Shown here in pieces: positions 1,144 through 59,047 of a stretch of DNA of 64,000 bases. This stretch comes from Closterium sp. NIES-65 (lineage: Eukaryota > Streptophyta > Zygnematophyceae > Desmidiales > Closteriaceae), in assembly GCA_948144175.1 (NCBI GenBank), contig CANXME010000418.1, positions 991,001-1,055,000 of the forward strand, in the 5' to 3' direction. Within the stretch, counting starts at the first letter, position 1, and each line of letters opens with the position of its first letter. The translations under genes were made by a program, and so were the position numbers. A model generated the notes under the pieces. The model searched no databases, was not told the DNA's origin, and was given only the letters and a program-made list of their open reading frames with translations.

Positions 1144-1346
1144 AGAGACAGCCGTGAAGTCTGTCGCATGAATCTGTGGTCATCCTTGCTTCACTATAAC
1201 CGTTGGAAGCGTAAACGACTCCACTCGAGGTGACTTTTGAGTTGACTCAAAAGTCAAGAAAAGAGACAGCCGTGAAGTCTATCGCATGAATCTGTGGTCA
1301 TCCGTGTTTCACTGGAACCGCTGGAAGCGTAGACGAATCCTCTCGT
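1144..1346. repeat. Tandem duplication centred on a palindrome (TTGA core)
   Basis: A segment of about 85 bp at 1144-1228 is repeated, with several substitutions, at 1262-1346. Between the copies, 1232-1255 reads GACTTTTGAG-TTGA-CTCAAAAGTC, a 10-bp-arm palindrome with one C-to-T change from the TCGA centre seen elsewhere. Confidence 0.85.
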
Positions 1347-1683
1347 TATGAGTGACAACAGCTGTGTCGTTCCGGTACGGTATGCCATCTGATCGTCGCT
1401 AATGCTTACTACATCTTAAATCTAGCCCTGACAGTTGCCTGAGGGAGTCTGTAGCTCCGTTTTGAGTCGTCCCGCAACAGATTTTGCCATCGCAGGTCTA
1501 GCCCTGGCAGCCTGAGGTTATCTGTCGCTCCTGTATTGAGTCGTCTCCTGCTCTGACGAGATTTGACTCAGATTTGTCTCTCCTGCGTCACCGCCTGCTC
1601 ATCGTATCACTGTCGCTGATCCGCATGGTAACGCCACTATTGTATCACCACCACTGTAAGTTAACCACGGAAACACTGCAACC

Positions 1684-3514: not shown

Positions 3515-3558
<44 letters not shown>

Positions 3559-6500
3559 TCTGCTGGTGACTCTGGTACACCGTTTACTCGTGCTCCTGCT
3601 CGTGGTGCTCCTGCTCGTGGTGCTCCTGCTCGTGGTGCTCCTGCTCGTGGTGCTTCTGCTCGTGATGCTCCTGCTCGTGATGATGCTGCTGCTGGTGCTG
3701 GTGGTTTGAGCATGGGTCGGATGAAGATGAGGAGAAGAAGTACAAGCCTTGAAGCTGGTGTGCAGGAGGCAGCAGCAGGCGGCTGGCATGCCACAGAAAG
3801 TGGGCGGCATGCATCAGCAAGTGGACGGCATGCCACAGAAAGTGGGCGGCATGCAGTGGCTGAAGGTGAAAGGCAGATGAGGTGTGGTGCTTACAGTCAG
3901 AGATGGAGTAACGGGGAAACGGGAAGAGAGATGGATATGGAGGAATGGAGAGGAGGAGGGGCTGGTAGGGATGACGAGAGGGAGGCATGGAGGGAGGCGT
4001 GGAGGGAAGCAGGGCGGGAGGCAAGGAGGGAAGCGTGGGGGGAGGCAAAGAGTGAAGCAGGAAAGGATGCAGGGGGTGGGGAGGAGCAGGAGGGTGGGAT
4101 TGAGGAGTGGGGAGCAGAGAAAAAGGGGAGAAGTAAGCGAGGGGGCAGCAAGAAGCAGAGGAGTGCGAGTGAGGGGCGTGTGGGGATGGAGCGTGCGCGT
4201 GCAGCTATGGGGGAAACTGGTGCGGCATGGGAGAGAGAATCTGCAGGGTTCGGTGGTCGGTTGAGCCAGGAGGAAGCGGAGGCATACAATCGTGTGATGA
4301 AGGTGAGTGAGTGGGTGAGAGAGAGGGAGTGCAAGTGAGGGGTGTGTGGGGGGGATGGATGGTGTGCGTGCAGTTATGGCAGGAAGTGGTGTGGCATGGG
4401 AGGGAGTATCTGCAGGGTCCGGTGGTCGGTTGAGCCAAGAGGAAGCGCATTTTCTACCTTTCTCAGTTCTTTGTCCTTGCTCTTTTTCTCTTTCTCAACT
4501 GAGACGAATTTTGAGGCGCCTCAAAAGTCGTCTCAGTTCTCGTGGTTTTTGTATCGAGAGGATTTTGAGGCACCTCAGAAGTCAATTTCTTCGCTTCTCA
4601 GTCCTTGTCCTTGCTCATTTTCTCTTTCTCAACTGATTCCCCTGTTGCACCACGATACCATAGGTATGTGTACCTTGTCTACCATTCCCATCCCATCTCC
4701 TTATTCCCATGCCTATTCCCACGTCCTCCTCTCGTCAACTGTTTTTCCTCAATTCCGCTTCCTCTTCCCCCTCACTTGTGGCTCTTCCCTTTCCACCTGC
4801 ATGCTCGCTTCTTCAGGCAGTAGTTCAGCTCAACGCTCACCAGCGCCGAGTGGTCACCAGCAGCAGCGGCACCGGCGGCAGCGTGAACAGCAGCAGGAGC
4901 AGCAGCAATAGCACCGATAGCAGCAAGAGCGTTGGCCGCCACAACAGCAACAGCGGGCACGCATCACCACCACTTGAGCAGCCAGGGTTACAGGCAGCAA
5001 TCAATGCAGACATGCATGGTGTGGCGTTGGACCACTCAGATGAAGCAACAGCTAATGACAAGCACCATTCCCGGGACCTCGTGCACCTGTAACCACCAAC
5101 CCCGGCTTATAGCCCCCTTAGCTCTCTACACCCCGTGCTGCATACCCCGTAGCTCAAAACCCCTTTCGCTCCTGCTGCCTTAGCCCAAACCCGTTTCTCG
5201 ACCCAAGTACCCATGGCCTAGCAGCGTCTGCTGGCTACGTGTAAAAAGGGTAGTTTTTAGTGTAAAAGAGACGTCTCAAAACTACTCTTTTCACACCCGA
5301 AGTACCCTTGGCCTAGCAGCGTCTGCTGGCTGCCCTCTCAGGAGAGAGTCTCTTAAAACAGCTCCCCTTTATTTCCCCTTCTTCCCTTGCCTCTGCCCTC
5401 CGTTCCCCCTCATCGTCCCTCCTCCGCTGCCGTTTCACCTGTGTACACGCAACCCCCCAGTGCGGCCCAGGCGCCCTTGGCCCAGCAGCGGCTCGTGGCG
5501 GCTCACTCAGGCCTGGTTCCTCGTCCTCAACACGCCGACCACCCATCCTCCTCCTCCTCACCCTCGACCGTCCCTCGTCTCCCCTCCCACACCCCCTACC
5601 CAGTGCGGCCCAAGCGCCCTTGGCCCAGCAGCGCCTGGTGGCTGGCGGCTCACTCAGGCCTGGTATCCTTTTCTCAAGACCCTGACCATCCTCCCCTTTT
5701 CCACCCACCAACTCTCTCTCGTTTCCCCCCCCACCCCCCACCCAGTGCGGCCCAAGCGCCCTTGGCCCAGCAGCGGCTCGTGGCGGCTCACTCAAGCCTG
5801 GTGCGCTCCATTGCTCGCCGCTTCTTCGGGCATGGGGTGTCCCTCTCCGACCTCTACCACGTGTGTGAGGGGATGAAGGGGGGATGGAGCGGGGGACTGG
5901 GGAGGGGTGAGATGGGTTGGAGCAATGGAGAGACTTTGATTCGCCTTGTGCCGGCTCATTCAGGGCGAGTGCGCTCCATTGCGCGCCGCTTCTTTGGCCA
6001 CGGGGTGTCCCTCTCTGACTTCTACCACGTGGGTACAAGAGGGAGGGGGGGGGGGGGGGGGTGATGGGGGTATGGCACTGAGGGTAGAGATGGGGCAGAC
6101 GGCTTTCTTCGGCCACGGGGTGTCCCTCTCCGACCTGTTCCACGTGCGTACACGCTTGTGTTGGGGGTTGTGGTGTTGGGGAGGTGGTTTTTAAGGGAGG
6201 TGGTTTTGGGGAAGGCAGGAAGAGGCTGGGATGGTGAGACTGCTTCTTCGGGCACGGGGTGTCCCTCTCCGACCTCTTCCACGTGGGTAAAATACAAGAG
6301 AGCGAGGGAGGGGGGGGGGGGGTTGATGGGGGTATGGCACTGAGGGTAGAGATGGGGCAGACGGCTTTCTCGGCCACGGGGTGTCCCTCTCCGACCTCTA
6401 CCACGTGTGTGAGGGGATGGAGTGATGGATGCACTTAGGGAGGTGGAGGTGGTGGGGGCTGAGATGCCTAAGATGGGTGATATGGGGGTTATGATTATTT

Positions 6501-9500
6501 CAGCCGCGGGTTATACCCCACCAGACAGAGCTTGGTTTGGTTTGCACTGTCCCCTACCTGCGCCTTGCTGCCTGCCTGCCTGCTTGCTTGCCACCCAGCA
6601 TCTCTTTCCGCTCTCCTTCCCATCTGCTCTCCCCCACCTTTCTCAATGCTGCATCCTCTTCCTCGTCTGCTTCGTCTTCTTCCTCGTCCGCCGCTTCCTC
6701 CTCCCGCCATTCTTTTCCACCCTTCCTCCGTTGCCTCCTCTCCTCTCCTCTCCTCTCCTCACACCTATTTCTCCCGCCGTTGCTTGGGCACCAGGCGGGA
6801 GTGACAGCCCTGCTGCGAGCAGCAGCAACCTACAACCCCACCCTCGCCTCTCCAGCCTCAGGTTGATCCCCCAGTCGACCTGGTAGTAATTGTTTTTTTT
6901 CTCTCTCCCACTCCCATTCTCTGCACCAGGCGGGAGTGACAGCCCTGCTGCGAGCAGCAGCAACCTACAACCCCACCCTCGCTTCTCCAGCCTCAGACCC
7001 CTCCTCGCAGCAAACCAGTGCAACCAAACCAGCCCAGTCAAGGGCACGAGGGGAGAAGGAGGAGGAGGAGAATGAGCGTGTGTTGAAGGATGAGAAGGAG
7101 GGTAAGGTGAAGGCGTGGCAGGAGGACGAGTATGGCATGAGGAAAGGCCGCTTGTGGGCTCTGCCAGGACTGAGGCGGAAAGCCCGTGTGGAGAGCGGAC
7201 GGGGAGAGGCAGTGAGTGGGGGAGGGGGTGTAGAGGCCGGCAGGGGAAAGGGTGAGGGGATGAAAGGACTCAATGAAGGGGGTGGGGCAGGCCAAGGGGT
7301 GGTGGCTGCACGGCCAACTCACATGTCGCAGGAGGCGATGCAGCGCGAGGTGCCACAGCAGGTGCTACAGTCGGTGCTACATCAGGGGCAGGTGGAGCAG
7401 CGGCCAACGGAGCAAGGGCAGCTTGAAAAGGACTTCGCAAATAGCGAAAGTGGAAAGCAAGGAGAGTTGGTGGAGGAGAAGCAGGGAGGATTTGAAGAGC
7501 AGCAGGCAATGTCCTTCTCATCATGGGCCAGTCGTCTTGTTTACCAGGTGAGCCCCATCCTCCTCCCTGTAACCCACAACCACCCCCCTCTCCCCTCACC
7601 CCTCCTCGATTGAACCCATCTCGCCCACAACCCCCTTGCAGTTGCCCGCTCACCACACCCTTGCTCCTCCTACTCCCACCTCCCTCCCACGAAGTGCCGG
7701 CCGGTTACCTGTCTTCTCCCACGAGGTGCCGGCTGGTTACCTGTCTTCTCCTTGCTGTGCCCCTTTCTTGTGTTCTACGAGCTGGTTTTTGAGAATTCTC
7801 AAAAGCCAACCCTCCCACGAGGTGCCGGTTACCTGTCTTCTCCCACGAGGTGCCGGCTGGTTACCTGTCTTCTCCTTGCTGTGCTCCTTTCTTGTATTCC
7901 CGCTTGACCACACAGACCACCCAATTCCATCCGCTCCCCCTCCCTCCATTCCCCTCTCCCTCCAATCTCTTCTCTCTCCCTCTCCCGCGCAGACCCTCCA
8001 GCAGGAGGTGTGGCGCCGCTCACCAGACTTCTCCTTCCCATGCTCCTTGCTTGAATGCCCGTTTGAAACCCCCTTTGAAACCCCCTTCCACTCCCGCCTC
8101 TCTCCCCTCCACCTCCACTCATCAGACCCTCCAGCAGGAGGTGTGGCGCCGCTCACCAGTCTTCTCCTTCCCACGCTACGCCTACTTCCAATACGCTGAG
8201 ATTTCTGCCGCCTATGCTGTAAGCCCATGTGTCATTCTGTACCATTCTGTGCCATTTCGTGCCATTGTAACGAGGTGAGTAGTTTTGAGGCACTGTAAAA
8301 GCCATTTGCCTGTTTCTTCCTTCCCATGCTACGCCTACTTTCAATGCGCTGAGACCTCTGCTGCCCTGCATTTTCGGAGTGAGAGAGAGAGAGCAAACAT
8401 TTACGCCTAATTTCGTGAAACGTGTTTGCTCTCGCTCTCTCTCTCACTCCCAAATTTCCAAAGCCTTGCATACCCTTTCGCTTTTCCTTCCTGTCTCACC
8501 CTCGCGTTTCAGCTATTCCTGAAGCCATACTGATGCAAGGCACTCAGAAAGAGGCAGAGAACTTCTATGAGTTCATTGGATTAGTGAGAGCTCTTAACCT
8601 TGCTTCCACGATTTCAACCTATACCCTCCATCTGCTCTCTCATCTCTCACACACTCTCTCCTTCTCTCCCCATCGCCCCTCACCTTCTCCCCCCACGCAG
8701 TCATTTCGGAAGCAGCACGGCCAGGAGCCCCCTCTCGCAGCCCCCTCAGCCACCACCTAGTGACTTCAAAGTCGATTCAAAAGCGCCTCTCTCCCCTTCC
8801 CCCCTCACCCTCGGCCCCCACCCAGTCATTCCGGAAGCAGCACGCCCGGGAGCCCCCTCTCGCAGCCCCCTCAGCCTCGTTTCCATGCTCTCACTCTCCC
8901 ATCTCCATTCCGCCTCTCTCTTTCTATTGCCCCTCACCTTCTGCCCCCACCCAGTCTTTCCGGAAGCAGCACGCTCGGGAACCCACCCTCGCAGACCTCT
9001 CAGCTGCCACCAGCCTCTCACCCCAACGGGTATGCGGCGGAATTCACCCGTGAACCTTAGGGTAGCTGCGGAATGTGCCCATTAACTCAAGGGGTAGGCT
9101 GCGGAATGTGCCAATGAACGCAGTGGGTGGGTATGCCGCCGATTGTGCTCATGAATCCATGGGTACGCTGAGTAATATGCTCACGAATTGCTGCAAGTTA
9201 CCATCGCTCACCTCCCTGCCATGCCATCCCTCTCGCCCACCAGATTGTGACTGTATCGAGGGCCATGAGGCGAATAAAGAATTGCCTTGTATGTGTTTTG
9301 TTACACTCCTCCCACCAGATTGTGACTGTCTCGAGGGCCATGCGGCGAGTGAAGAACCCTCTCTCCTTCGACGTCTCCTTGCTCCCCAACCGCACCCATG
9401 CTGAGACCTTCTCCAACGACAAAGCGGACCCCTGGCAGGTGGGTTTGAGATTGGACTGAGAGGAGGGATGAGAACAGGGATGAGAACAGGGATGAGAATG

Positions 9501-11235
9501 CGACAGTAACAACCTCCTCTCCTCCCCCCCCGCACCCCCCCCTCCTTCTACTCCTCCTCTTCTCCGCCCAACAGCATCTACTGGACTCGGAGCATCTGGT
9601 CCTCCTCTCACACGCTCTCTCCTCGCTTCCCTCCATCTATCCGTCTCCACGTCTCCTCTATGTCTTCCCTCCCTCGCTTCCTCTCTTCCCCATCCAACAG
9701 CATCTCCTGGACTCAGAGCATCTCGTCCTCCTCTCACGCGCTCTCCCCTTTTTTTGAGCCGGCAAAAACAACCTCCCCCGCCTCTCCTTCTACTCCTCCC
9801 GTTCTTCTCCTCCTGTCTTCCCCATCCAACAGCATCTCCTGGACTCGGAGCATCTGGTCCTCCTCTCACACGCTCTCTCCACCCTCGACCCGCACCGCCG
9901 CCTCGTGAGTGCACTTTTGCTAACACATGGGCAGAGGCGGCGGGTACAAATGGGTAGTGGTGCGTACAAATGAGCAGAGGCGGTTACAAATGGGCAGAGG
10001 CAGGTACAAATGAGGGTACAGAGGGGCAGAGGTGGGTACGGATAAGCTGCAATTCTCTGTGCATGTGCCGTGTTTTCATGCACCTTCCCTAAGAAGTCAT
10101 ATTTTGAGTCGACTCAAAACACGACTCAATACAAGCAGAATCAGCTGCAATTCTCTGTGCATGTGCCGCGTGTTCATGCACCTTCTCTAAGATCGTTGCA
10201 ACGACGTTCGCCGTTCCTCTACCTGACTCGCACCGCCCTCGCCCCCTTCGTTTCTGCACCCTGAATGAGCAGATTCTGGAGCTTCGGCTTAGCCTTAGGG
10301 GTTCTCGCCGTGTGCCATGTGTTCCTGTGCCCCTTCTCCGCACATGGTGTAATCTCTCCCTACCTCTCTCTCCCTGTCTCTGACCGTCCTCGCCCCCTTC
10401 GTTTCCGCACCCTGAATGAGCAGATTCTGGAGCTTCGGTTTGGCCTGCGGGGGTCTCGCCAAGTCTCACAAGAGGAGGTGAGTGCATGCTTCCATTTGCC
10501 CTGATTTGAGTCGACTCAAAGCAGTCTCACAAGAGGAGGTGAGTGCATGCCTTGGTGTGGCCTGCATGCATCATTCCACTTGATGCACCATTTGACATAT
10601 GACGATGCACTGCGTTTACTTTTGAGTCGACTCAAAAGCCACTACGGTGTGGCCTGCATGCATCATTCCACTTGATGCACCATTTGACATATGACGATGC
10701 ACTGTGTTTGACATTCGTTTTTGCGTGTTTTTTCGCAGATTGCTGCAGCGTTGGGGATGACACCCAAGATGGTGTCTTACTTGGAGGTGAGTGTGTGTGT
10801 GAAGGGGAGAGGTGAAGCACCTGGTGCTGACGGTGAAAGGCTCCCCTTTCCCAAGGTGGCAGGGGACTTGGAAGAGGAACGAACACAACAGACCATACAA
10901 AATTTGTATTCCAGACGTATCATATGTGCTTGCCATGTGCACATCACAATCGAGGGGTGTGGTGGGTGCGGGCGTGTGCATGTGTGTCATTGTGTGCGTT
11001 TTGCTTATTTCGTGGTTATTTTATACTTTCTAAGGTGTCATTTGTGGTTGCTATGTTTTGTGTGTGTTTGTGGTGGTGGTGGTGGTGGTGGGGGGGTGCG
11101 GGCGTGATTGAGTGTGGGTGCGTGTGCGGAACGCACGGGTGTGTGTTTGTGCGCACGTGTGTGTGAGTCACATTGCAGGTTTCAGCATTGAAGCAATTGA
11201 GGAAGGCATGTGTGGGTGGCACAAATATAAAGTGA
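1684..11235 (+). CDS. SIG: Plastid RNA polymerase sigma factor (sigma-70 family), 11 exons
   Basis: Predicted promoter-recognition subunit for the bacterial-type plastid RNA polymerase. Exons: 1684-4302, 4817-5088, 5746-5860, 6930-7547, 8126-8218, 8955-9029, 9319-9438, 9833-9904, 10424-10477, 10739-10786, 11179-11235; all GT-AG and in phase, 1380 aa. The start sits in a strong ACCATGGCG context and the N-terminus (MAAVNPPLLSGVAVRG, basic/Ser-rich) looks like a transit peptide. Region 2.1-2.2: RLVAAHSSLVRSIARRF, then DLYHAGVTALLRAAATYNP across an exon junction. Region 2.3: FSSWASRLVYQ. Region 2.4: SFPRYAYFQYAEISAAYA. Region 3: AREPTLADLSAATSLSPQR and PLSFD. Region 4: LILELRFGLRGSRQVSQEE, then IAAALGMTPKMVSYLEVSAL. 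Residues 1-873 are long, low-complexity (poly-Ser, GAPAR repeats) and unlike typical 400-600 aa plant sigma factors. About 160 residues are inserted between regions 2.2 and 2.3. Most exons have partial copies, so which copies are used is inferred from phase and homology. Confidence 0.85.
3517..3678 (+). repeat. Poly-Ser (AGC)n and GAPAR-type coding repeats in sigma exon 1
   Basis: An (AGC)n run at about 3520-3560 encodes poly-serine. It is followed by 15-bp units encoding repeated Gly-Ala-Pro-Ala-Arg at about 3590-3680. The region is in frame in the long N-terminal extension and is probably disordered. Confidence 0.8.
4195..4475 (+). repeat. Duplicated 3' end of sigma exon 1
   Basis: The end of exon 1 (about 4190-4275, encoding GGRLSQEEA) is copied in the intron at about 4360-4445. 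The copy keeps the GGTGGTCGGTTGAGCCA stretch but lacks the continuation to the functional donor at 4303. Confidence 0.8.
4501..4534. repeat. Junction palindrome, GCGC core
   Basis: GAGACGA-A-TTTTGAG-GCGC-CTCAAAA-GTCGTCTC: arms of about 15 bp with one mismatch. A CT-rich segment of about 40 bp (CTCAGT..CTTTCTCAACTGA) lies before it at 4462-4501 and again at 4597-4638. A decayed second palindrome (TTTTGAGGCACCTCAGAA) sits at 4563-4580. Confidence 0.85.
5200..5333. repeat. Duplication with ACGT-core palindrome
   Basis: GTACCC(A/T)TGGCCTAGCAG..CTGCTGGCT occurs at about 5200-5235 and again at about 5297-5333. Between the copies, GAGACGTCTCAAAACTAC at 5268-5285 is the right part of an ACGT-core palindrome. 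The left arm is interrupted (GTAGTTTTT, then about 10 extra bases). Confidence 0.8.
5457..6415 (+). repeat. Seven full or partial copies of sigma exon 3 (region 2.1)
   Basis: The region 2.1 exon is present as the intact copy 5746-5860 and as truncated copies from 5457 and 5601, each with its own CAG acceptor but ending after AAHSGLV. Further truncated copies around 5946-6030, 6098-6147, 6240-6288 and 6360-6407 keep the 3' part (GHGVSLSDL.HV) and a GTG donor. Only one copy has both acceptor and donor in phase with the neighbouring exons. Confidence 0.85.
6790..6992 (+). repeat. Duplicated start of sigma exon 4
   Basis: The segment CACCAG|GCGGGAGTGACAGCC..CCAGCCTCAG occurs at about 6790-6862 and again from 6924. 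The first copy stops after about 62 exon bases. The second continues into the full exon 6930-7547. Confidence 0.85.
7696..7860. repeat. Palindrome (AATT core) among GAGGTGCCGG repeats
   Basis: TTTTGAGAATTCTCAAAA at 7787-7804. CCCACGAGGTGCCGG and its relatives flank it on both sides (about 7688, 7717, 7814, 7842). Confidence 0.85.
7990..8380 (+). repeat. Copies of sigma exon 5 (region 2.4)
   Basis: ACCCTCCAGCAGGAGGTGTG with its CAG acceptor occurs at 7991 (truncated) and at 8126 (intact exon 8126-8218). The 3' half is copied again at about 8325-8372 (CATGCTACGCCTACTTTC). A decayed palindrome (TTTTGAGGCACTGTAAAA, 8283-8300) lies between the intact exon and the last copy. Confidence 0.8.
8690..9029 (+). 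repeat. Three copies of sigma exon 6 (region 3 start)
   Basis: CAG|TC(A/T)TT(T/C)CGGAAGCAGC occurs at about 8701, 8825 and 8955. The first two copies decay after the Leu-Ala-Ala codons; the third is full length and ends at a GT donor at 9030. A decayed palindrome (TTCAAAGTCGATTCAAAA) sits at about 8765-8782, between copies one and two. Confidence 0.8.
9238..9904 (+). repeat. Copies of sigma exons 7 and 8
   Basis: Exon 7 start (ATTGTGACTGT.TCGAGGGCC) occurs truncated at about 9242 and complete at 9319. Exon 8 start (CAACAG|CATCT.CTGGACTC) occurs at about 9572, 9702 and 9833; only the last has a donor (9905). A decayed palindrome, TTTTTGAGCCGGCAAAAAC, lies at about 9751-9769 between the second and third copies. 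Confidence 0.8.
10045..10190. repeat. Duplication with TCGA-core palindrome
   Basis: AGCTGCAATTCTCTGTGCATG..TTCATGCACCTTC occurs at about 10045-10090 and 10143-10190. TTTTGAGTCGACTCAAAA lies between them at 10102-10119. Confidence 0.9.
10250..10477 (+). repeat. Copies of sigma exon 9 (region 4.1)
   Basis: GCACCCTGAATGAGCAG|ATT..GAGCTTCGG occurs at about 10257-10305 (truncated) and 10409-10477 (intact exon 10424-10477). The truncated copy diverges after the FGL-equivalent codons. Confidence 0.75.
10461..10550. repeat. Duplicated exon 9 donor around a TCGA-core palindrome
   Basis: AGTCTCACAAGAGGAG|GTGAGTGCATGC, the end of exon 9 with its 5' splice site, occurs at about 10462-10489 and again at about 10523-10550. 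TTTGAGTCGACTCAAA at 10505-10520 separates them, so the donor exists twice. Confidence 0.9.
10554..10704. repeat. 59-bp direct repeat around a TCGA-core palindrome
   Basis: An identical 59-bp segment beginning GGTGTGGCCTGCATGC is at 10554-10612 and 10646-10704. TTTTGAGTCGACTCAAAA at 10620-10637 lies between. The identity suggests a recent event. Confidence 0.92.
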
Positions 11236-12093
11236 TAGTGCTGTTATATATACTATCCCCATCTGTGAAAAAAAACAGTGTTCACTTGCTGAAGCTGGTA
11301 TGTTGTATTCCTGTGTGAAAAGTGTTCCGAATTACGGTACCTGAAAGTAGTTATTTAATTAATCAGCTCCTTCCACCTGATTCCCACCCTCCCACTCTCT
11401 ATAATCACACTAGTGTGAAGCAGACTTTTCCAGTGTATTATGAATATGGACCTAACAAATGAATCCAGAAAATCCGATGTAGTTTTGATCTGGAGGCTGA
11501 ACATCAGAGGAAATAAGATTATTGACACACTACACTAAGATTTCCATGTCTGTGCCATCACCATACATCCTATTTCTTAGACTTAGAGCTGTAGGAAGTT
11601 TCCTTGCAGAACCTAAGCTTACCAACCACCTCCCCCTGTAACATTCAAGATTGACAGTAACCACGCCTCCATCATGCTATCACTGTAGCAAAAATCAATT
11701 GGCTAAGGGTGGGTATTGATTGAGAGCCCGCATTGAAAGCCTGAAGCGGGCTTTGTAGCCGAAACCGAAGCAGAACAAGCGGCAGGCAGGAGTCCTTCAA
11801 AACGAAAAGAGAAGCATAAGGTACCCCTGCCTCACAGTGCCTCACCCTGCCTCACCCCTTCCTACCAACCTTGAGAGAGACCGAATGAAAGAAAGTTTGC
11901 AGTACCTTTCAACAAGGCCCAATCATGCTTATACCCACCCACCAACACCATCCGCTCTGCCCCCCCCAAATGAAATCAAACAGTGCACAGTGCGTGCTCA
12001 TAGGCTGCGATCCCACCAATCCTTGACCTCGGAGAGTCGACTCGAAAATCAATGATGCATGCTCATAGGTTGCTCGTAGGTGGCTCATAATCC
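11236..12093. other. Convergent intergenic region
   Basis: The stretch separates the stop codons of the sigma gene (+) and the U-box kinase gene (-). It is more AT-rich than its neighbours and carries no supported coding region. It should hold both 3' UTRs and polyadenylation signals. Near 11995-12110 there are decayed copies of the last PUB exon's GC.CATAGGTTGCG..TCCCGCCA segment around a degenerate palindrome (GAGAGTCGACTCGAAAA, 12032-12048). Confidence 0.6.
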
Positions 12094-47566: not shown

Positions 47567-47643
47567 ATGTACGTCTATTCTTCTGATATTAATCTAGCCT
47601 ATAATTTAAACACGCCTTCTCATTGAACGCGCTTCGTCCTTGC

Positions 47644-50600
47644 ATGGCGGCTCAAACGTCCTTAGCGGATCTTACGGCAGACTGCTTCGCGCACTGCTGC
47701 CGATGGCTCTCTCCCCGCGACCTCGTGAATCTCTCCTTTTGCTGCTCGTCGCTTCGCCAACTTGCCAATAGCGATGCACCGTGGGCATGCTACGTGGCAC
47801 ATCAGGAAGAGCTACCCCGTCAGGTTCGCATATAACTCGTGTACTCAGCACGTCAGTTCTCTCATAGTTTCTGGGAAAAAAAATGTTTCGGAGGTGAGTT
47901 TTTGAGGCGAAGTCCCTTCACGTTCTCCTCCTTCTTTCCCTTCCCCTCCCACTCCCCTTCACCTTCCCCCTCCCTTTCTCTCCCCTCTCCCCTTCTCCCT
48001 TTCCTTTCCCGCACTACATGCCCCATGTTTCCGTGCTTCAGGCTGCGCTCCTCTCGGGATTCCGTCAGGCCTTCATAGAGCGCCACGTGGCAGCACAGAA
48101 GCTGCAGATCGCCGACCCTGCCACGTGCGCATGGCCCCTGTCTGGGGACGCAAGGGGGGACGCAGCCGCAGCAGGAGGCGGAGGAGAGGGGGACGGGGGA
48201 GGGGAAGGCGCGGCAGCAGCAGCATGGGGATGGGGTGGGCCAGGGGGAAGGGGAGGGGGAGTTAGGGGGGGAAGAGGTGTGGGGCAGGGCGGCGGGGGGG
48301 AAGGGGAAGCGCAGAAGCCTGTGAGCGCAGTGGTGGCGCTACAGGGGGGCGGAGGCCTTTCCGCCATCCCTGCTTTATCCTCAGTTTCAGTCCCAGGCGC
48401 TGGGGAGGGTGATGAGTGGGATGAGGAGGGAGGGGAGGAAGGGGAGGGGAGGGGGAAGGAGGGGAGGGAAGGCTGGCATCATGTGGTGGCAGTGCAGGTA
48501 CGCTCCTTGGCTCTGTTTTTGTCTCTTTGGCTCTGTTTTGTTTTTGTTATTGTTTTTTTTTCCAGTTCCCCTTGTACCTCTTCCTAGTCGTGTTTATCCA
48601 TTCATAGCTCGGGTTTTGTTTTCTCGTTGTTATGTTTTGTTCTCTTTTTTTCTTTTTCTTTTCTTTTCTTTTCTTTCTTTTTCGGTCTTGGTTCTCTCCG
48701 TCACCTTTTCGTGTTCGTTCAAGCGTCGCTCACTCACACTCCCCCCCCCTTCCCCCCACCCTTGCAACAAGGCGCATCACAGCAGCAATAATCCACTCCG
48801 ACCACCTGCCTTGCCTTACGATTCGAAGCCAACCCAACCCAACCCAGCGTCAACGGTATTAAATCTACCCAACCCAACCACCTCCCTTGCTAGCAGGGCT
48901 CCAACGTCATCCTGTGGCGGGCAGCAGCGCCAGCAGGAGGGGTGCAGCTGTCAGCAGTGTTCACAGCACACAAGGGGCGCATCACAGCGCTGCTGCTCCC
49001 AGGGGACCTCTCGCCCTTCCCTCCTCCCCACTCCCATGACCCCTGCACCCACCTCCCTTGCATACAGGGCTCTAACATTCTCCTGTGGGGAGCAGCACCA
49101 GCAGGACGGGTGCAGATGTCAGCAGTGCTCACGGCACACAAGGGCCGCATCACAGCGCTGCTCCCAGTGGACCTCTCGCCCTTCCCTGCCGCTGCCCGCC
49201 TCGCCCCGCCCCTCCCCGCCCACACCTTCCTGCTCTCCACCAGTCTGGACCGCACTCTGCGCCTCTGGGGCAAGGTGAGAGGTGAGGGCAAGTGAGATGG
49301 TTTCATCCTGCTGCTTGTCTTGCCCCGCCCGTAGCCCCTAGCCCCTCATCCCGCCCGTAGCCCCTAGCCCCTCATCCCGCCCGTAGCCCCTAGCCCCTCA
49401 TCCCGCCCGTAGCCCCTAGCCCCTCATCCCGCCCGTAGCCCCTAGCCCCTCATCCCGCCCGTAGCCCCTAGCCCCTCATCCCGCCCGTAGCCCCTAGCCC
49501 CTCATCCCGCCCGTAGCCCCTAGCCCCTCATCCCGCCCCGCCCCTCCCCGCCCACACCTTCCTGCTCTCCGCCAGCCTGGATCGCACTCTACGCCTCTGG
49601 GGCAAGGTGAGACCGGCAGCTCGTTTTTGCATTCCATCCTCACCCCTCGCCCCGTGCCCCTCACCCCCCACCTTCCCCTCCCTGCCCACACTTTCCTCCT
49701 CTCTGCCAGTCTGGACCGCACTCTACGCCTCTGGGGCAAGGTGAGAGATACTTGCAAGGTGAGAGATACTTGCAAGGTGAGAGATACTTGCAAGGTGAGA
49801 GATACTTGCAAGGTGAGAGATACTTGCAAGGTGAGAGATACTTGCAAGGTGAGAGATACTTGCAAGGTGAGAGATACTTGCAAGGTGAGAGATACTTGCA
49901 AGGTGAGAGATACTTGCAAGGTGAGAGATACTTGCAAGGTGAGAGATACTTGCAAGGTGAGAGATACTTGCAAGGTGAGAGATACTTGCAAGGTGAGAGA
50001 TACTTGCAAGGTGAGAGATACTTGCAAGGTGAGAGATACTTGCAAGGTGAGAGATACTTGCAAGGTGAGAGATACTTGCAAGGTGAGAGATACGTGCAAG
50101 GTGAGAGATACTTGCAAGGTGAGAGATACTTGCAAGGTGAGAGGGTGAAAAAGGTAGTGGGGGCACACAAGTCGGGGCCTTCGTCCTTCTTTTACCTTGT
50201 CCCTTCTCTCCTATCTTATTGCTCCTCTCTACCCTTCCTCTCTGCTCTGAGACACATTCTCAGCACCTCACGCCCTTGCTTCCTCCCGTGATATACCACC
50301 CTCTCTGCCCTCTGCTGCCCTCTCCACCTTTCGCCACCTCCTTCCCTTTCTCCCCTTTGCTGCCCCACCCAGACCACCTGTCTGCGCTCCTTCTCAGGGC
50401 ACACAGGCCCCATCCTCTGCCTCTCAGACCGCATCATCGGCACCTCACACCCTTGCACGGGGAGCAACAGTGATGCTTCGAGCGCAGCTATCCCTTCCTC
50501 TACTTCCTCGTCCTCCTTCCTTCCGTGCGTCGCGACTGGAGGCAGCGACAGCACCGTTCGTGTCTGGTCCCTCCTCCATCAGGTATGTGGTCCCTCCTCC

Positions 50601-53600
50601 CATCAGGTATGTGGTCCCTCCTCCCATCAGGTATGTGGTCCCTCCTCCCATCAGGTATGTGGTCCCTCCTCCATCAGGTATGTGGTCCCTCCTCCCATCA
50701 GGTATGTGGTCCCTCCTCCCATCATGGTATGTGGTCCCTGCCCGTCTCCCATCAGGTATGTGGTTCCCTCCTCCCATCAGGTATGTGGTCCCTCCTCCCA
50801 TCAGGTATGTGGTCCCTCCTCCCATCAGGTATGTGGTCCCTCCTCCCATCAGGTATGGTGGTCCCTCCTCCCATCAGGTATGTGGTCCCTCCTCCCATCA
50901 GGTATGTGGTCCCTCCTCCATCAGGTATGTGTGTCCCTCCTCCCATCAGGTATGTGGTCCCTCCTCCCATCAGGTATGTGGTCCCTCCTCCCATCAGGTA
51001 TGTGGTCCCTCCTCCCATCAGGTATGTGGTCCACTCCTCCCATCAGGTATGTGGTCCCTCCTCCCATCAGGTATGTGGTCCCTCCTCCCATCAGGTTCCA
51101 TGTGGTGTGGTCCCTCCTCCCATCAGGTATGTGGTCCCTCCTCCCATCAGGTATGTGGTCCCTCCTCCCATCAGGTATGTGGTCCCTCCTCCCATCAGGT
51201 ATGTGGTCCCTCCTCCCATCAGGTATGTGGTCCCTCCTCCCATCAGGTATGTGGTCCCTCCTCCCATCAGGTATGTGGTCCCTCCTCCCATCAGGTATGT
51301 GGTCCCTCCTCCCATCAGGTATGTGGTCCCTCCTCCCATCAGGTATGTGGTCCCTCCTCCCATCAGGTATGTGGTCCCTCCTCCCATCAGGTATGTGGTC
51401 CCTCCTCCCATCAGGTATGTGGTCCCTCCTCCCATCAGGTATGTGGTCCCTCCTCCCATCAGGTATGTGGTCCCTCCTCCCATCAGGTATGTGGTCCCTC
51501 CTCCCATCAGGTATGTGGTCCCTCCTCCCATCAGGTATGTGGTCCCTCCTCCCATCAGGTATGTGGTCCCTCCTCCCATCAGGTATGTGGTCCCTCCTCC
51601 CATCAGGTATGTGGTCCCTCCTCCCATCAGGTATGTGGTCCCTCCTCCCATCAGGTATGTGGTCCCTCCTCCCATCAGGTATGTGGTCCCTCCTCCCATC
51701 AGGTATGTGGTCCCTCCTCCCATCAGGTATGTGGTCCCTCCTCCCATCAGGTATGTGGTCCCTCCTCCCATCAGGTATGTGGTCCCTCCTCCCATCAGGT
51801 ATGTGGTCCCTCCTCCCATCAGGTATGTGGTCCCTCCTCCCATCAGGTATGTGGTCCCTCCTCCCATCAGGTATGTGGTCCCTCCTCCCATCAGGTATGT
51901 GGTCCCTCCTCCCATCAGGTATGTGGTCCCTCCTCCCATCAGGTATGTGGTCCCTCCTCCCATCAGGTATGTGGTCCCTCCTCCCATCAGGTATGTGGTC
52001 CCTCCTCCCATCAGGTATGTGGTCCCTCCTCCCATCAGGTATGTGGTCCCTCCTCCCATCAGGTATGTGGTCCCTCCTCCCATCAGGTATGTGGTCCCTC
52101 CTCCCATCAGGTATGTGGTCCCTCCTCCCATCAGGTATGTGGTCCCTCCTCCCATCAGGTATGTGGTCCCTCCTCCCATCAGGTATGTGGTCCCTCCTCC
52201 CATCAGGTATGTGGTCCCTCCTCCCATCAGGTATGTGGTCCCTCCTCCCATCAGGTATGTGGTCCCTCCTCCCATCAGGTATGTGGTCCCTCCTCCCATC
52301 AGGTATGTGGTCCCTCCTCCCATCAGGTATGTGGTCCCTCCTCCCATCAGGTATGTGGTCCCTCCTCCCATCAGGTATGTGGTCCCTCCTCCCATCAGGT
52401 ATGTGGTCCCTCCTCCCATCAGGTATGTGGTCCCTCCATCAGGTATGTGGTCCCTCCTCCCATCAGGTATGTGGTCCCTCCTCCCATCAGGTATGTGGTC
52501 CCTCCTCCCATCAGGTATGTGGTCCCTCCTCCCATCAGGTATGTGGTCCCTCCTCCCATCAGGTATGTGGTCCCTCCTCCCATCAGGTATGTGGTCCCTC
52601 CTCCCATCAGGTATGTGGTCCCTCCTCCCATCAGGTATGTGGTCCCTCCTCCCATCAGGTATGTGGTCCCTCCTCCCATCAGGTATGTGGTCCCTCCTCC
52701 CATCAGGTATGTGGTCCCTCCTCCCATCAGGTATGTGGTCCCTCCTCCCATCAGGTATGTGGTCCCTCCTCCCATCAGGTATGTGGTCCCTCCTCCCATC
52801 AGGTATGTGGTCCCTCCTCCCATCAGGTATGTGGTCCCTCCTCCCATCAGGTATGTGGTCCCTCCTCCCATCAGGTATGTGGTCCCTCCTCCCATCAGGT
52901 ATGTGGTCCCTCCTCCCATCAGGTATGTGGTCCCTCCTCCCATCAGGTATGTGGTCCCTCCTCCCATCAGGTATGTGGTCCCTCCTCCCATCAGGTATGT
53001 GGTCCCTCCTCCCATCAGGTATGTGGTCCCTCCTCCCATCAGGTATGTGGTCCCTCCTCCCATCAGGTATGTGGTCCCTCCTCCCATCAGGTATGTGGTC
53101 CCTCCTCCCATCAGGTATGTGGTCCCTCCTCCCATCAGGTATGTGGTCCCTCCTCCCATCAGGTATGTGGTCCCTCCTCCCATCAGGTATGTGGTCCCTC
53201 CTCCCATCAGGTATGTGGTCCCTCCTCCCATCAGGTATGTGGTCCCTCCTCCCATCAGGTATGTGGTCCCTCCTCCCATCAGGTATGTGGTCCCTCCTCC
53301 CATCAGGTATGTGGTCCCTCCTCCCATCAGGTATGTGGTCCCTCCTCCCATCAGGTATGTGGTCCCTCCTCCCATCAGGTATGTGGTCCCTCCTCCCATC
53401 AGGTATGTGGTCCCTCCTCCCATCAGGTATGTGGTCCCTCCTCCCATCAGGTATGTGGTCCCTCCTCCCATCAGGTATGTGGTCCCTCCTCCCATCAGGT
53501 ATGTGGTCCCTCCTCCCATCAGGTATGTGGTCCCTCCTCCCATCAGGTATGTGGTCCCTCCTCCCATCAGGTATGTGGTCCCTCCTCCCATCAGGTATGT

Positions 53601-56600
53601 GGTCCCTCCTCCCATCAGGTATGTGGTCCCTCCTCCCATCAGGTATGTGGTCCCTCCTCCCATCAGGTATGTGGTCCCTCCTCCCATCAGGTATGTGGTC
53701 CCTCCTCCCATCAGGTATGTGGTCCCTCCTCCCATCAGGTATGTGGTCCCTCCTCCCATCAGGTATGTGGTCCCTCCTCCCATCAGGTATGTGGTCCCTC
53801 CTCCCATCAGGTATGTGGTCCCTCCTCCCATCAGGTATGTGGTCCCTCCTCCCATCAGGTATGTGGTCCCTCCTCCCATCAGGTATGTGGTCCCTCCTCC
53901 CATCAGGTATGTGGTCCCTCCTCCCATCAGGTATGTGGTCCCTCCTCCCATCAGGTATGTGGTCCCTCCTCCCATCAGGTATGTGGTCCCTCCTCCCATC
54001 AGGTATGTGGTCCCTCCTCCCATCAGGTATGTGGTCCCTCCTCCCATCAGGTATGTGGTCCCTCCTCCCATCAGGTATGTGGTCCCTCCTCCCATCAGGT
54101 ATGTGGTCCCTCCTCCCATCAGGTATGTGGTCCCTCCTCCCATCAGGTATGTGGTCCCTCCTCCCATCAGGTATGTGGTCCCTCCTCCCATCAGGTATGT
54201 GGTCCCTCCTCCCATCAGGTATGTGGTCCCTCCTCCCATCAGGTATGTGGTCCCTCCTCCCATCAGGTATGTGGTCCCTCCTCCCATCAGGTATGTGGTC
54301 CCTCCTCCCATCAGGTATGTGGTCCCTCCTCCCATCAGGTATGTGGTCCCTCCTCCCATCAGGTATGTGGTCCCTCCTCCCATCAGGTATGTGGTCCCTC
54401 CTCCCATCAGGTATGTGGTCCCTCCTCCCATCAGGTATGTGGTCCCTCCTCCCATCAGGTATGTGGTCCCTCCTCCCATCAGGTATGTGGTCCCTCCTCC
54501 CATCAGGTATGTGGTCCCTCCTCCCATCAGGTATGTGGTCCCTCCTCCCATCAGGTATGTGGTCCCTCCTCCCATCAGGTATGTGGTCCCTCCTCCCATC
54601 AGGTATGTGGTCCCTCCTCCCATCAGGTATGTGGTCCCTCCTCCCATCAGGTATGTGGTCCCTCCTCCCATCAGGTATGTGGTCCCTCCTCCCATCAGGT
54701 ATGTGGTCCCTCCTCCCATCAGGTATGTGGTCCCTCCTCCCATCAGGTATGTGGTCCCTCCTCCCATCAGGTATGTGGTCCCTCCTCCATTTCAGCCCAT
54801 CAGGTATGTGGTCCCTCCTCCCATCAGGTATGTGGTCCCTCCTCCCATCAGGTATGTGGTCCCTCCTCCCATCAGGTATGTGGTCCCTCCTCCCATCAGG
54901 TATGTGGTCCCTCCTCCCATCAGGTATGTGGTCCCTCCTCCCATCAGGTATGTGGTCCCTCCTCCCATCAGGTATGTGGTCCCTCCTCCCATCAGGTATG
55001 TGGTCCCTCCTCCCATCAGGTATGTGGTCCCTCCTCCCATCAGGTATGTGGTCCCTCCTCCCATCAGGTATGTGGTCCCTCCTCCCATCAGGTATGTGGT
55101 CCCTCCTCCCATCAGGTATGTGGTCCCTCCTCCCATCAGGTATGTGGTCCCTCCTCCCATCAGGTATGTGGTCCCTCCTCCCATCAGGTATGTGGTCCCT
55201 CCTCCCATCAGGTATGTGGTCCCTCCTCCCATCAGGTATGTGGTCCCTCCTCCCATCAGGTATGTGGTCCCTCCTCCCATCAGGTATGTGGTCCCTCCTC
55301 CCATCAGGTATGTGGTCCCTCCTCCCATCAGGTATGTGGTCCCTCCTCCCATCAGGTATGTGGTCCCTCCTCCCATCAGGTATGTGGTCCCTCCTCCCAT
55401 CAGGTATGTGGTCCCTCCTCCCATCAGGTATGTGGTCCCTCCTCCCATCAGGTATGTGGTCCCTCCTCCCATCAGGTATGTGGTCCCTCCTCCCATCAGG
55501 TATGTGGTCCCTCCTCCCATCAGGTATGTGGTCCCTCCTCCCATCAGGTATGTGGTCCCTCCTCCCATCAGGTATGTGGTCCCTCCTCCCATCAGGTATG
55601 TGGTCCCTCCTCCCATCAGGTATGTGGTCCCTCCTCCCATCAGGTATGTGGTCCCTCCTCCCATCAGGTATGTGGTCCCTCCTCCCATCAGGTATGTGGT
55701 CCCTCCTCCCATCAGGTATGTGGTCCCTCCTCCCATCAGGTATGTGGTCCCTCCTCCCATCAGGTATGTGGTCCCTCCTCCCATCAGGTATGTGGTCCCT
55801 CCTCCCATCAGGTATGTGGTCCCTCCTCCCATCAGGTATGTGGTCCCTCCTCCCATCAGGTATGTGGTCCCTCCTCCCATCAGGTATGTGGTCCCTCCTC
55901 CCATCAGGTATGTGGTCCCTCCTCCCATCAGGTATGTGGTCCCTCCTCCCATCAGGTATGTGGTCCCTCCTCCCATCAGGTATGTGGTCCCTCCTCCCAT
56001 CAGGTATGTGGTCCCTCCTCCCATCAGGTATGTGGTCCCTCTTCCCATCAGGTATGTGGTCCCTCCTCCCATCAAAATCAGCAGCGGCAGAGCACTCAAA
56101 AGTGAGTTCGTGTCTGGTCCCTCCGCCCATCAGGTATGTTACTCCAACATGACCTCACCTCTCCTCAAACCGTCCTTGTATCATCAATGCCTCTCCTCTC
56201 TTCTGTTGTTCTTGTCTATGTTTCCGTTTGGGTGGTATCCAGTCATCCTTTTGAGTCGACTCAAAAGTCACTCCGTTTTGGGTGGTATCCAGTCATCCTC
56301 TTCTTCACACCATTACCTCACTCTCAGTCTTCCTCACTACACCCTCCTCCCAAACCCTCCTACTAAACCCTCCAACCAACCATTCTCACTATTCCTTCCC
56401 TGCTTCCCTTATTCCAATCCCCCCCCCTCTTTCCCACCTGCCAGGGAAGGGGCGGTCAGCATGTGTTGCCACACTCAAGGGCCATGAGGGGCCGATATCG
56501 GCTCTGGCTGTTGCCACGTGGGTGATTTGTTTCTTCCTTGGCTTGACTTCCGTCCTCGTGTGATTGAACTCTTGAGAATTCTCAAAAGCTGCATGCTTGT

Positions 56601-59047
56601 ACCGTACACCAGCATCGTCCTGTCGATGCAATAACTGCCCTGCCTGTTGCTGCATGGGTGATTTCGTTCCTGGCCTCGTACTGCCACATATTGCCAGTTC
56701 TGTTCTCCTTACATGCAAGACCACCAGCATGGGTTACATGCTTTCACCATGCATATCAGCATCGTCCTCCTGTCCATGCAATAACTGCCCTGGCTGCTGC
56801 TTCGTGCGTTTCTTTCTCCCTCCCTCAACGTGTTGTTACTTGCACAAGCTTGCACGGCACCAGCGTTCTTTCCCTTTTCATTTGTCCTTCTCTCGACTCC
56901 CTCGTGCCATCATACTCCCTCCCTCCTTCACTCGCCTTCCTGCCATCCTCATTGTCCCTCTCCCTCTCCCCCTTCCCTTTCCCCTCGCCCTTTCCCTCAC
57001 TCAATTGTTGGTAGGGCACCGGACTTGTTCCCCTGTTGAGTGTAGGCCGGCTACAGTAGCGTTCTAGAGGGTTATGGGTGTGCTAGACCAGACAAACATG
57101 CCCTTTTGAGTTGAAACCCAGGCGGTAACAGGCTGAGTCGTCGTCATCATCCGTGTCACTTTAACTTACCCTACTCATGCCCCTCTCCTCTCAACATCAC
57201 CCCTCGCCCCCCGCCCTCCCTCATCGCAGTCACAACCCCTTCCTTCTGGCCAGTGTTGCTCGTGACGCCAAGGTGAGGATTGCTCGGGAGTTGTTTTTCC
57301 CAGGCACCTTTATCCATGATACCGTATTTGTGGTTCAAAATTCTCGCACTGATTCATAAGCAGGTGATTCACATCCACACCACCACCCTTCAGTCGATTA
57401 ATTAATCTGCCTGCACGCACCCTCTCTTCCTTGATGTTTTGTCCACCCTCTTTCTCACTCGCTTTCATAAGCCGGACTTGATTGTCTTAATCAATTTCTT
57501 TTGTTTCATCTGCTGCTTGTTTTGTTGTCCCATCATCCCAAGCAGCTGCGACTGTGGGATTGCCGCCACGTGATTCCATCCTCCATCACCATGGTTGCCG
57601 CGGCGCACAAGGCGACTACTTCTCTCTCCCCAACCTCCTCCTCCTCCTCCTCGTCGTCGTCTTCCTCGCCTTGCATCGGCACGTGTCGCACGCCCACAGC
57701 CCCCTTTGCTCTCCTCCCCCTCCCGCCTCACCCCACCCATGCGCTGTGCCTTGTGGTGGGCCGAGGCGGCATAGCGGCTCTGGACTTGCTTTCAATGAAA
57801 CAGGTATGGCATGGGAGGTGCAGCACAGGCACGTGTCGCACGCCCACAGCCTGTTCTGTGCCTTGTGGTGGGCCGAGGCGGCATAGCGGCCCTGGGCCTG
57901 CTTTCAATGAAACAGGAAAGGCACTTGTAACTTCCTTACCACTGAATCAGGCATGGTCCTGGCAGCGTGCACAGCCCTTGGAGCATGTTTTTGTGAGAAT
58001 TCTACAAAGATCAGGCATGGTCCTGGCAATGTGCACAGTACTTCGCATATGTGCTGTCTGTCTGAGTCGTGTACAACGACTGCATTAAGGATCTGAACAT
58101 TAGCGTACACCTGTCTTGTTGCCAACGCTTCCTTTGCCCGCCCCTCACCCACTTCTCTTTTCCGCTCTCCCCACGCCCACACTCTCTTCGCCCACACTCA
58201 GGTTCTCGCCCTCCCATGTGGGTCCGCCCCTCTCTCCTCCTTCGCCTCCTCTCCATCGCGCTGCATCTTTGCAGCAGGCTCTGAGGATGGGTGTGTCAGG
58301 CTGTGGCGCATGGGGCAGGTGCGGGAGGAAGGGGCAGCGGAAAGAATAAACACTGCAGGAGCAGCTGGGGCGGGAGGGCAGCTCTCAGCAGGCATGCGAG
58401 AATCTAAAGTGCTCTCAAACTGCTGCCAGGCAGGCGTGGCTGAGTTCACGCTGCTCGCCTGCTCAAAGGCGCACATCAGTACAGTGGATTTACTGTACGT
58501 GGACGGTTATAAATGCATCAGTGGGAGCCGAGGGGACGGAGTGTTGTGTGTGTGGGATGTGGAGACTGGGGAGGAGATTCGCACGTTGGACGCTACTGTT
58601 CTCCCCCCCTGGCTGGTGGAAACCGATGATGCTAGTAACGAGGGTCATGGTGATGGTGGTGGTGGTGAAGCTGCTGCTGGTGGTAACCTTACAAATGCTG
58701 GTAACAGCAGCGATTCAACAGCGGATGTTGACCTTATAGGGGAAGGTGGTGCTACAGCTGATGTTGCGACTGCTGGCGAAAGTAGGGGCAATGCTCCTGA
58801 GACCGTGAGGCGAGTTCTAGTGGAGAGTATGCATGCATGTGGGGGTGTGGTAGTTGCTGCCTTGGTGAGCTATCGCAGGAGGGCTGTGCTTGGGAGGAGG
58901 ATGCAACAACATGTGGTGGAGGAGGTTGAAGGCAGATGGATGCGTTTGTGGGATTTCACTTGTGGGAAAGCTTCATTGTTAGATGATGGTAATTTTTTAA
59001 GGGAAGAGGATGAGTCTATGATAGTGGGTGGAGGAAAATTCTGGTAG
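47644..59047 (+). CDS. F-box/WD40-repeat protein, 8 exons
   Basis: Predicted substrate receptor of an SCF-type ubiquitin ligase. Exons 47644-47823, 48042-48497, 49068-49274, 50373-50582, 56450-56517, 57230-57272, 57546-57803, 58202-59047 join in phase to 755 aa. F-box at about residues 6-55 (LADLTADCFAHCCRWLSPRD, then LVNLSFCCSSLRQLAN). After a Gly/Ala/Glu-rich linker come WD40 blades: HTFLLSTSLDRTLRLWGK, VATGGSDSTVRVWSLLHQ, ATLKGHEGPISALAV, HNPFLLASVARDAKLRLWD, CIFAAGSEDGCVRLWRM, CISGSRGDGVLCVWDVETG. A Gly/Asp-rich insertion interrupts the C-terminal part. Exon 5 uses the AG at 56448-56449 because it keeps phase; the AG at 56443-56444 would not. The order F-box then WD40 is shared with plant F-box/WD40 proteins such as Arabidopsis At3g52030 (from memory). 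The intron after exon 4 is about 5.9 kb, mostly minisatellite. Confidence 0.82.
48890..49745 (+). repeat. Copies of the SNILLWGAAPAG / DRTLRLWGK exon
   Basis: A truncated copy of exon 3 begins at 48897 (GSNVILWRAAAPAGG) with its own acceptor. After the intact exon (49068-49274), its last ~65 bases with the donor recur at about 49540-49607 and 49673-49740. Confidence 0.85.
49331..49538 (+). repeat. 26-bp minisatellite, eight units
   Basis: Units of GTAGCCCCTAGCCCC-TCATCCCGCCC with period 26, between exon-end copies of the F-box/WD40 gene. Confidence 0.93.
49735..50142 (+). repeat. 18-bp minisatellite built from an exon end and donor
   Basis: About 22 units of GTGAGAGATACTTGCAAG. The first unit starts at a copy of the exon 3 donor (GGGGCAAG|GTGAGA). 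Every unit regenerates a CAAG|GTGAGA 5' splice-site consensus. One unit has CGTG for CTTG near 50092. Confidence 0.95.
50572..56075 (+). repeat. 5.5-kb, 24-bp minisatellite seeded by an exon end and 5' splice site
   Basis: About 228 units of CATCAG|GTATGTGG + TCCCTCCTCC. The first instance is the true end of exon 4 (TGGTCCCTCCTCCATCAG|GTATGT), encoding WSLLHQ. Units from 50583 to about 51110 have indels and substitutions; from there on they are near-identical. Exceptions are a shortened unit at about 52434 and an insertion (TTTCAGCC) at about 54790. A substitution sits at 56042 near the right end. A last diverged copy (TGTCTGGTCCCTCCGCCCAT) follows at about 56112. All forward frames stay open because 24 is a multiple of three and no frame has a stop. 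Confidence 0.97.
56224..56298. repeat. 25-bp direct repeat around a TCGA-core palindrome
   Basis: CCGTTTGGGTGGTATCC-AGTCATCC at 56224-56248, repeated with one extra T at 56273-56298. TTTTGAGTCGACTCAAAA lies at 56249-56266. Confidence 0.93.
56510..56815. repeat. Duplicated intron segments around an AATT-core palindrome
   Basis: CTTGAGAATTCTCAAAAG at 56571-56588. TGTTGC..G.GTGATTT.TT.CT occurs on both sides (about 56510 and 56648). CACCAGCATCGTCCTGTC..ATGCAATAACTGCCCTG is itself repeated at about 56605 and 56757. Confidence 0.82.
57820..58045. repeat. Exon-7 end copies and decayed AATT-core palindrome
   Basis: GGCACGTGTCGCACGCCCAC..CTTTCAATGAAACAG, the exon 7 middle and end, is copied at about 57828-57916. 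Downstream, ATCAGGCATGGTCCTGGCA occurs at 57946 and 58010 around TTTTGTGAGAATTCTACAAA (57989-58008). Confidence 0.82.

Follow-up and report, generated by a model that had tools for sequence, protein, structure and literature searches.

We describe a family of short palindromes, TTTTGAG-N4-CTCAAAA, which are scattered throughout the genome of Closterium sp. NIES-65 and, in the stretches studied, usually lie between two copies of the neighbouring host sequence. They were noticed in a stretch of 64,000 nt (contig CANXME010000418.1, C418, positions 991,001–1,055,000), which we will call the window. The genome searched is an assembly of 874,075,685 bases in 2400 contigs. We consider it probable that each site is an insertion, in which a dispersed non-coding palindromic micro-element has been joined into a staggered break with filled-in overhangs. 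A wider proposal has in our opinion somewhat less than an even chance: that these sites represent a new type of nuclear mobile DNA, a loopless palindrome of about 18–56 bp which is joined into staggered breaks, is rebuilt from one of its halves and seeds minisatellites by duplicating its target.

The palindromes are much more abundant than expected. When up to three mismatches are allowed, there are 27 matches in the window; 100 shuffled sequences with the same dinucleotides give 1.64 (standard deviation 1.23, largest value 5). The window has 16 perfect palindromes with arms of at least 7 nt, of which 14 are members of the family. Arms of at least 9 nt are found in 12 cases, every one of them a member, while a first-order model predicts 0.15. 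In the whole genome we have found 30,327 exact cores, about 35 per Mb, versus 4 for the reversed control. Their N4 is TCGA (13,080), GCGC (5,851), ACGT (5,047) or AATT (2,601) in 26,579 of these cores. All four tetramers are self-complementary, so that fresh cores have no loop. We have also studied sampled stretches: L005–L022 were chosen for holding palindromes, L023–L029 adjoin the window. In 264 kb of sampled sequence 60 of the 65 exact cores fall into the four classes; the other five are one base off, four of them as expected from CpG decay. The self-complementarity of N4, the four classes and the spread over the genome are additions to the initial annotation of the window, which had been made from its sequence alone.

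The distance between the two halves is strict: 31 alternative spacings (5 to 35) total 3,267 places in the genome (control 172). Nested or neighbouring standard cores are present in many of the places listed. We counted the word TTTTGAG 228 times in 314 kb, where each of five other words with a similar composition is present 8 to 37 times. Roughly 168 of these 228 words sit inside palindromes; outside them half-sites are at about background level. The latter result bears on the idea that the palindromes are footprints left by the excision of a longer transposon with these ends. Identical ends joined together would make a perfect palindrome, as observed, but full-length elements should then be visible as an excess of half-sites. 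We regard this origin as extremely improbable. The distribution of the exact cores is uneven: there are 13 in the window, one in each adjoining 10-kb stretch and none in five further 10-kb stretches, four of which have long frames that match retroelement domains.

The second feature of the sites is the duplication of their flanks. Among 43 isolated sampled sites whose core has no more than one mismatch, 36 have a direct repeat (score at least 10) immediately next to the palindrome. The controls gave 77 of 400 for random positions and 2 of 400 when the left flank of one site was compared with the right flank of another. With a looser score and arrays included, 73 of 88 sites have a flank repeat. 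It is the excess of flank repeats which carries the weight, not their presence, because random positions also sit rather often in local duplications. The excess of flanking direct repeats foreseen in the initial annotation is present in this sample, which covers part of the genome matches. At sites with a flank identity of at least 0.9 the duplicated length goes from 11 to 137 bp, with a median of 42 bp. The insert at these sites measures 18–92 bp; since sites were located by their core, the lower limit of 18 bp is partly built in. The identity of the flank copies is 0.79–1.0 across sites, often 0.9–1.0. The 31 young sites have 62 ends, and the letter immediately outside the break is A in 28 of them; this weak preference is the only signal which the target shows.

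Local duplications are common, as the random positions demonstrate, and one could suppose that ordinary tandem duplications have acquired a palindrome by chance or through an error of assembly, or that slippage occurred at palindromes which were already present. However the palindrome counts exceed chance both in the window and in the genome. Slippage would copy the palindrome too, whereas it is observed once per junction, just as had been described at the outset. Many flank copies have also diverged, down to the lowest identities quoted above, which indicates that the sequences are old. This explanation is hardly credible.

The palindromes extend beyond the core through outer arms which are specific for each class: those of TCGA cores resemble GTCACCTCG, and those of AATT cores are GTCACTCC or TCAAYCTCAAACA. 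In the ACGT class the arm usually has twelve letters followed by CACGTG, with 11- and 13-letter forms. The 18-bp core with its arms, up to about 19 bp on each side, reaches about 56 bp. The first description, a single palindrome at each junction with the left flank repeated to its right, is correct, but these arms are element sequence outside the core. Classes with common arms recur at unrelated places, and the left and right arms of one insert are often unequal in length. By eye, several ACGT-class copies appear to have one full arm and one cut arm. Such one-ended truncation is the mark of a small hairpin RNA retroposed by target-primed reverse transcription, and the long variable duplications would fit the paired nicks of that process. 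Genome-wide arm counts rule out the impression. There are 483 and 440 arms with exactly twelve letters plus CACGTG; if the ends were independent, these 923 arms in 5,047 cores would give about 42 copies with both arms full. We found 130, a count which allows spacings of 10–14, unlike that of the single arms, and which includes arrays, with many of the listed copies in two of them. Truncation is therefore not one-ended. There is no tail either, and the self-complementarity of N4 would be unexplained if it were the tetraloop of an RNA. Retroposition of an RNA is thus very unlikely.

The sequence of the arms tells more about their origin. We listed 79 ACGT-class arms, counting each array once; 50 of them are distinct. 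All 79 have T at position 7, and 72 have C at position 6. In 11 distinct pairs of twelve-letter arms, the two arms of one locus agree on average in 10.8 of 12 positions, versus 5.8 across loci. They are identical in 7 of 11 comparisons within a locus and in 1 of 110 across loci. Arm variation is thus mirrored within a locus, as if one arm were copied onto the other.

Inverted-repeat ends, division into classes and dispersal are also what one would expect from a miniature inverted-repeat transposable element (MITE), a non-autonomous DNA transposon, moved in this case by an undiscovered transposase which makes long variable target duplications. Nevertheless duplications of such different lengths are unlike those set by transposases, and trimming has affected the ends. 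In the 314 kb we found nothing longer which has these ends. Core spacings of 5 to 35 in the genome (kilobase spacings were not searched) are rare, and many of those listed contain a standard core, as described above. We judge this alternative unlikely.

Two loci show the site in its empty state. At position 1299 of L010 a 60-bp host sequence is found on each side of a 23-bp insert. Further along L010 there are two paralogous stretches with a single copy of the 60-bp sequence and no palindrome insert; when the empty site is reconstructed by joining, its alignment scores with them (77.6 and 97.1) exceed those of the filled site (67.9 and 91.3). In the window, the insert at 38869 is a bare 18-bp core between 13-bp copies (38856–38868 and 38887–38899), and the 13-bp word is present once in each unit of the adjacent 33-bp array. 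In L009 a host word is present in three copies, parted by a GCGC-class palindrome at 6156 and an ACGT-class palindrome at 6215: these are two independent insertions at one place. Contig C1689 carries a near-identical copy of parts of the window (35500–37000 and 9700–12300, 96–100% identity), which is either a recent duplication or a second haplotype. It shares the palindrome at 36017, and across the palindromes at 10102–10620 the alignment has no large gap; hence it gave no empty site. A CTGCCA hexamer array of about 44 copies (36219–36485) is several times shorter in this copy (L038), while the palindrome beside it is unchanged.

Such sites could arise in a few steps. Two nicks on opposite strands, some 10–100 bp apart, would give a double-strand break, and the fill-in of both overhangs would duplicate the host sequence between the nicks. 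The palindromic element would then be joined to a filled end on either side, after unequal trimming of its left and right outer arms. Its letters would be copied from existing elements, so that a donor is supposed. Fold-back template switching may copy one arm from the other, which would keep the halves alike. Later slippage or unequal exchange of the unit formed by flank and palindrome would produce tandem arrays. Arrays of identical units of this type do occur, with a unit size of 37–53 bp.

Several results weigh against this insertion model. The strongest one against the palindrome alone as the driver of duplication comes from a scan of local direct duplications. It gave 233 cases, 15 in the retroelement stretch and 218 in host DNA. 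From the latter we set aside 56 arrays and 33 alignments apparently broken by indels, which left 129 clean two-copy cases. In 111 of them the spacer measures 16–70 bp; 43 have the palindrome and 68 do not. Shorter spacers are less frequent, 13 cases with 4–15 bp and 5 with 0–3 bp, and the 50-kb retroelement stretch has 2 clean duplications. Duplication is not specific to the palindrome, because of the 68 clean cases which carry a spacer without it. Moreover no flank repeat was found at two of the clear sites of the window, a GCGC-class core cut on its right (14798–14815) and an ACGT-class core (33793–33810). At the L010 locus the gap between empty-site and filled-site scores is only 6–10 units, and the left flank is of low complexity. 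We have found no enzyme, autonomous partner, donor or longer relative, and free half-sites in the 314 kb are near background, as stated above. Finally, finding sites by their core under-counts inserts which are cut into the core.

Palindrome-free duplications of about 15–120 bp with a unique spacer of 16–70 bp are common in the window and in L005–L024, while abutting two-copy duplications are rare. The 68 fillers without palindrome have no common 8-letter words beyond those of random pieces. Some of these cases may be decayed copies, or tandem repeats with a fractional copy number. As a group they favour a general break-repair process in which the palindrome is the one recurrent insert. The initial annotation had offered two explanations, a fold-back element with long variable target duplications or a break-repair process with a palindromic filler. 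Both survive and are combined in the insertion model, with the correction that duplication is not exclusive to the palindrome.

Taken to its extreme, break repair could account for everything: every staggered break would receive a newly made palindrome as its filler, with no copying between places. For example a fixed short template could be added to both 3' ends, whose self-complementary tips would then anneal. The four self-complementary N4 classes agree with this idea, other duplications also carry fillers, and neither the target nor the length of the duplication is fixed. On the other hand there are dozens of arm variants, several of them on many contigs, which look like lineages and not like the product of a single template. 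Outer ends should also be constant in a filler of this kind, yet in our palindromes they are variable and it is the centre which stays constant. Pure repair is a possibility to be taken seriously, although an unlikely one, and we prefer the insertion of an element which is copied from place to place.

We can now consider the individual sites. The initial annotation reported about twenty clear palindromes in the window. All 20 are present, either where reported or 1–12 bp off, because some positions referred to a longer palindrome; the corrected core starts are 1235, 10504, 30978, 36017, 43518, 46315, 46405 and 56570. The 27 matches do not include the site at 5268, whose left TTTT is set apart from GAGACGTCTCAAAA. 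The repetition of the left flank on the right, claimed for most sites, is clear at 16, doubtful at two and absent at two. The doubtful ones are 38828, within the 33-bp array, and 56570, with 72% identity.

The clear cases belong to all four classes. In the TCGA class, a decayed core (1235–1252, with TTGA) lies between flanks 1138–1227 and 1256–1345 (90/90 bp local alignment, score 68). The core 10102–10119 has a right extension and lies between 10042–10094 and 10140–10192; core and extension match many other loci. It is followed by 10504–10521, between 10462–10503 and 10523–10564 (42 bp, score 30), and by 10620–10637, between 10554–10617 and 10646–10709 (98% identical). A 28-bp perfect palindrome with GTGAC/GTCAC arms (36012–36039) is found between flank copies in 35965–36090; it sits between apparent splice sites, in an intron-like position. 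The core 56249–56266 has flank copies of 26/27 bp (56223–56298). Region 46271–46448 contains a TCGA-class core, 46315–46332, and a GCGC-class core, 46405–46422, the latter in a 24-bp palindrome which starts at 46402; they have separate flank repeats of about 40 and 23 bp. Also in the GCGC class, the cores 4509–4526 and 4563–4580 share one duplication, with flanks at about 4460–4502 and 4595–4636 (43/42 bp, identity 0.93, 92 bp apart). In region 38564–38899 the array with 33-bp units (38564–38826) is followed by GCGC-class cores at 38828–38845 and 38869–38886. In the ACGT class, a disrupted palindrome with long arms (about 5268–5285) lies between 5194–5236 and 5289–5331 (43 bp, score 33), the core 30978–30995 has twelve-letter arms, CACGTG on its right and 27-bp flank copies, and the core 43396–43413 lies between 19-bp flanks (43377–43395 and 43416–43434). 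In the AATT class we find the core 7787–7804, between 7682–7775 and 7810–7899 (94/90 bp, identity 0.93), the core 27503–27520, with weaker flank copies (27461–27553, identity 0.79), and the longest perfect palindrome of the window, 44 bp (43505–43548), between 43463–43507 and 43549–43596.

Seven further sites had been reported as decayed. Four of them, 8765, 9752, 32285 and 57991, coincide with a junction between repeats; at 8283 and 12032 there is a repeat on one side, 70 and 43 bp off, and 39762 has no repeat near it. Two of them are AATT-class cores: 32285–32302, inside a longer inverted repeat with flanks 32208–32260 and 32316–32368 (53 bp, score 47), and 57991–58008, with 43-bp flank copies (57946–58052). 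The sites 8765 and 9752 are found inside tandem arrays with 125- and 132-bp units (8663–9011 and 9551–9880), which look as if old units of flank and palindrome had been amplified. In L012 there are 20-bp tandem repeats (9343–9483) with non-palindromic TTTTGAGGCAC half-cores. A 24-bp minisatellite occupies positions 50565–56074 of the window, with about 229 copies and 98% match; its unit TGGTCCCTCCTCCCATCAGGTATG has a splice-donor-like word inside, and several frames stay open over kilobases. As to a mechanism based on splice sites, there is only a weak enrichment: a splice-like motif toward the palindrome within 60 bp is found at 12 of 81 sites and 233 of 3000 controls. Head-to-head telomere addition is also unsupported, as 8 contig ends of 1.5 kb, which are probably not chromosome ends, have no TTTAGGG or TTTTGAG array.

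The DNA which bears the palindromes comes from the nucleus of a charophyte green alga and not from an organelle, because the contigs hold nuclear-type genes and retrotransposons. Protein domains in the window include armadillo repeats in two genes, a protein kinase and WD40. An armadillo-repeat protein has three matches in the protein collection, from Closterium sp. NIES-53, NIES-54 and NIES-68, which are 88, 84 and 76% identical. Apart from one tRNA, Rfam at its gathering threshold gives nothing in the window. One 3-kb gene has no match in the plasmid collection, and the TCGA core, the one core tried, has no exact match in the viral collection. A search for paralogues with an 11-kb DNA query gave mostly low-complexity-like matches to two small parts of the query.

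We found no description of such an element in the literature searched, whose coverage is thin for subscription papers and preprints. The four core words are absent from it, and a paper on genome size in Closterium (PMC10407611) does not have "palindrom" in its main text. If our interpretation is correct, the insertions, which number tens of thousands, are traces of a mobile or repair process outside the transposon classes which we have compared, and the spread of tiny hairpin elements becomes testable in a nuclear genome; Closterium is described as crossable and has several sequenced strains (PMC10407611). Each copy would record the stagger length of one break. Together they would form a natural archive, open to dating, of how a relative of land plants has repaired its staggered breaks; they would also be a source of new minisatellites.

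Among known systems, MITEs and other DNA transposons with terminal inverted repeats have inverted-repeat ends, a high copy number, no coding sequence and a target duplication of fixed length. The Closterium cores with their arms are also inverted repeats with a high copy number and no coding capacity, but their duplication has no fixed length (median 42 bp), they have no interior and their ends are trimmed. Long and short interspersed nuclear elements have a long variable target duplication, as found here, together with one fixed end and one-ended truncation. The latter are not found in Closterium, where copies with both arms full are not depleted. Introners are inserts which act as introns and are associated with splice sites. 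The Closterium inserts measure 18–92 bp and have the weak enrichment of splice-like motifs given above; the mean intron lengths of four related assemblies are 485–554 bp (PMC10407611). By anatomy the nearest systems are the hairpin elements of organelles, which are also short palindromes dispersed in many copies. The GC clusters of yeast mitochondria, the repetitive or double hairpin elements and the palindromes of Volvox organelles are described as short, non-coding, nested and present in many copies; they are thought to be mobile by a mechanism which their authors leave unresolved (PMC4478555, PMC2800124, PMC2670323). The flanking repeats of these organelle elements are short or absent; according to the reports GC clusters have flanking repeats of 2–3 bp (PMC4478555), whereas the Closterium palindromes lie between duplications of tens of bp. 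Volvox palindromes are organellar and have loops of 3–5 nt, and the few copies in the nucleus are called inert transfers (PMC2670323), while those of Closterium are nuclear and loopless. With regard to mechanism, the fill-in of staggered breaks by CST-Pol alpha-primase followed by end-joining is reported to give small tandem duplications (PMC8355091). They are also of tens of bp beside the repaired break, but the ends described there are joined near-blunt, while the Closterium junctions hold a specific palindrome of at least 18 bp. Template switching at quasipalindromes makes and mends perfect hairpins (PMC8794818). It makes the arms of an inverted repeat similar, as in our palindromes, but as described it acts in place on an existing repeat and leaves the dispersal and the duplicated flanks of the Closterium palindromes unexplained.

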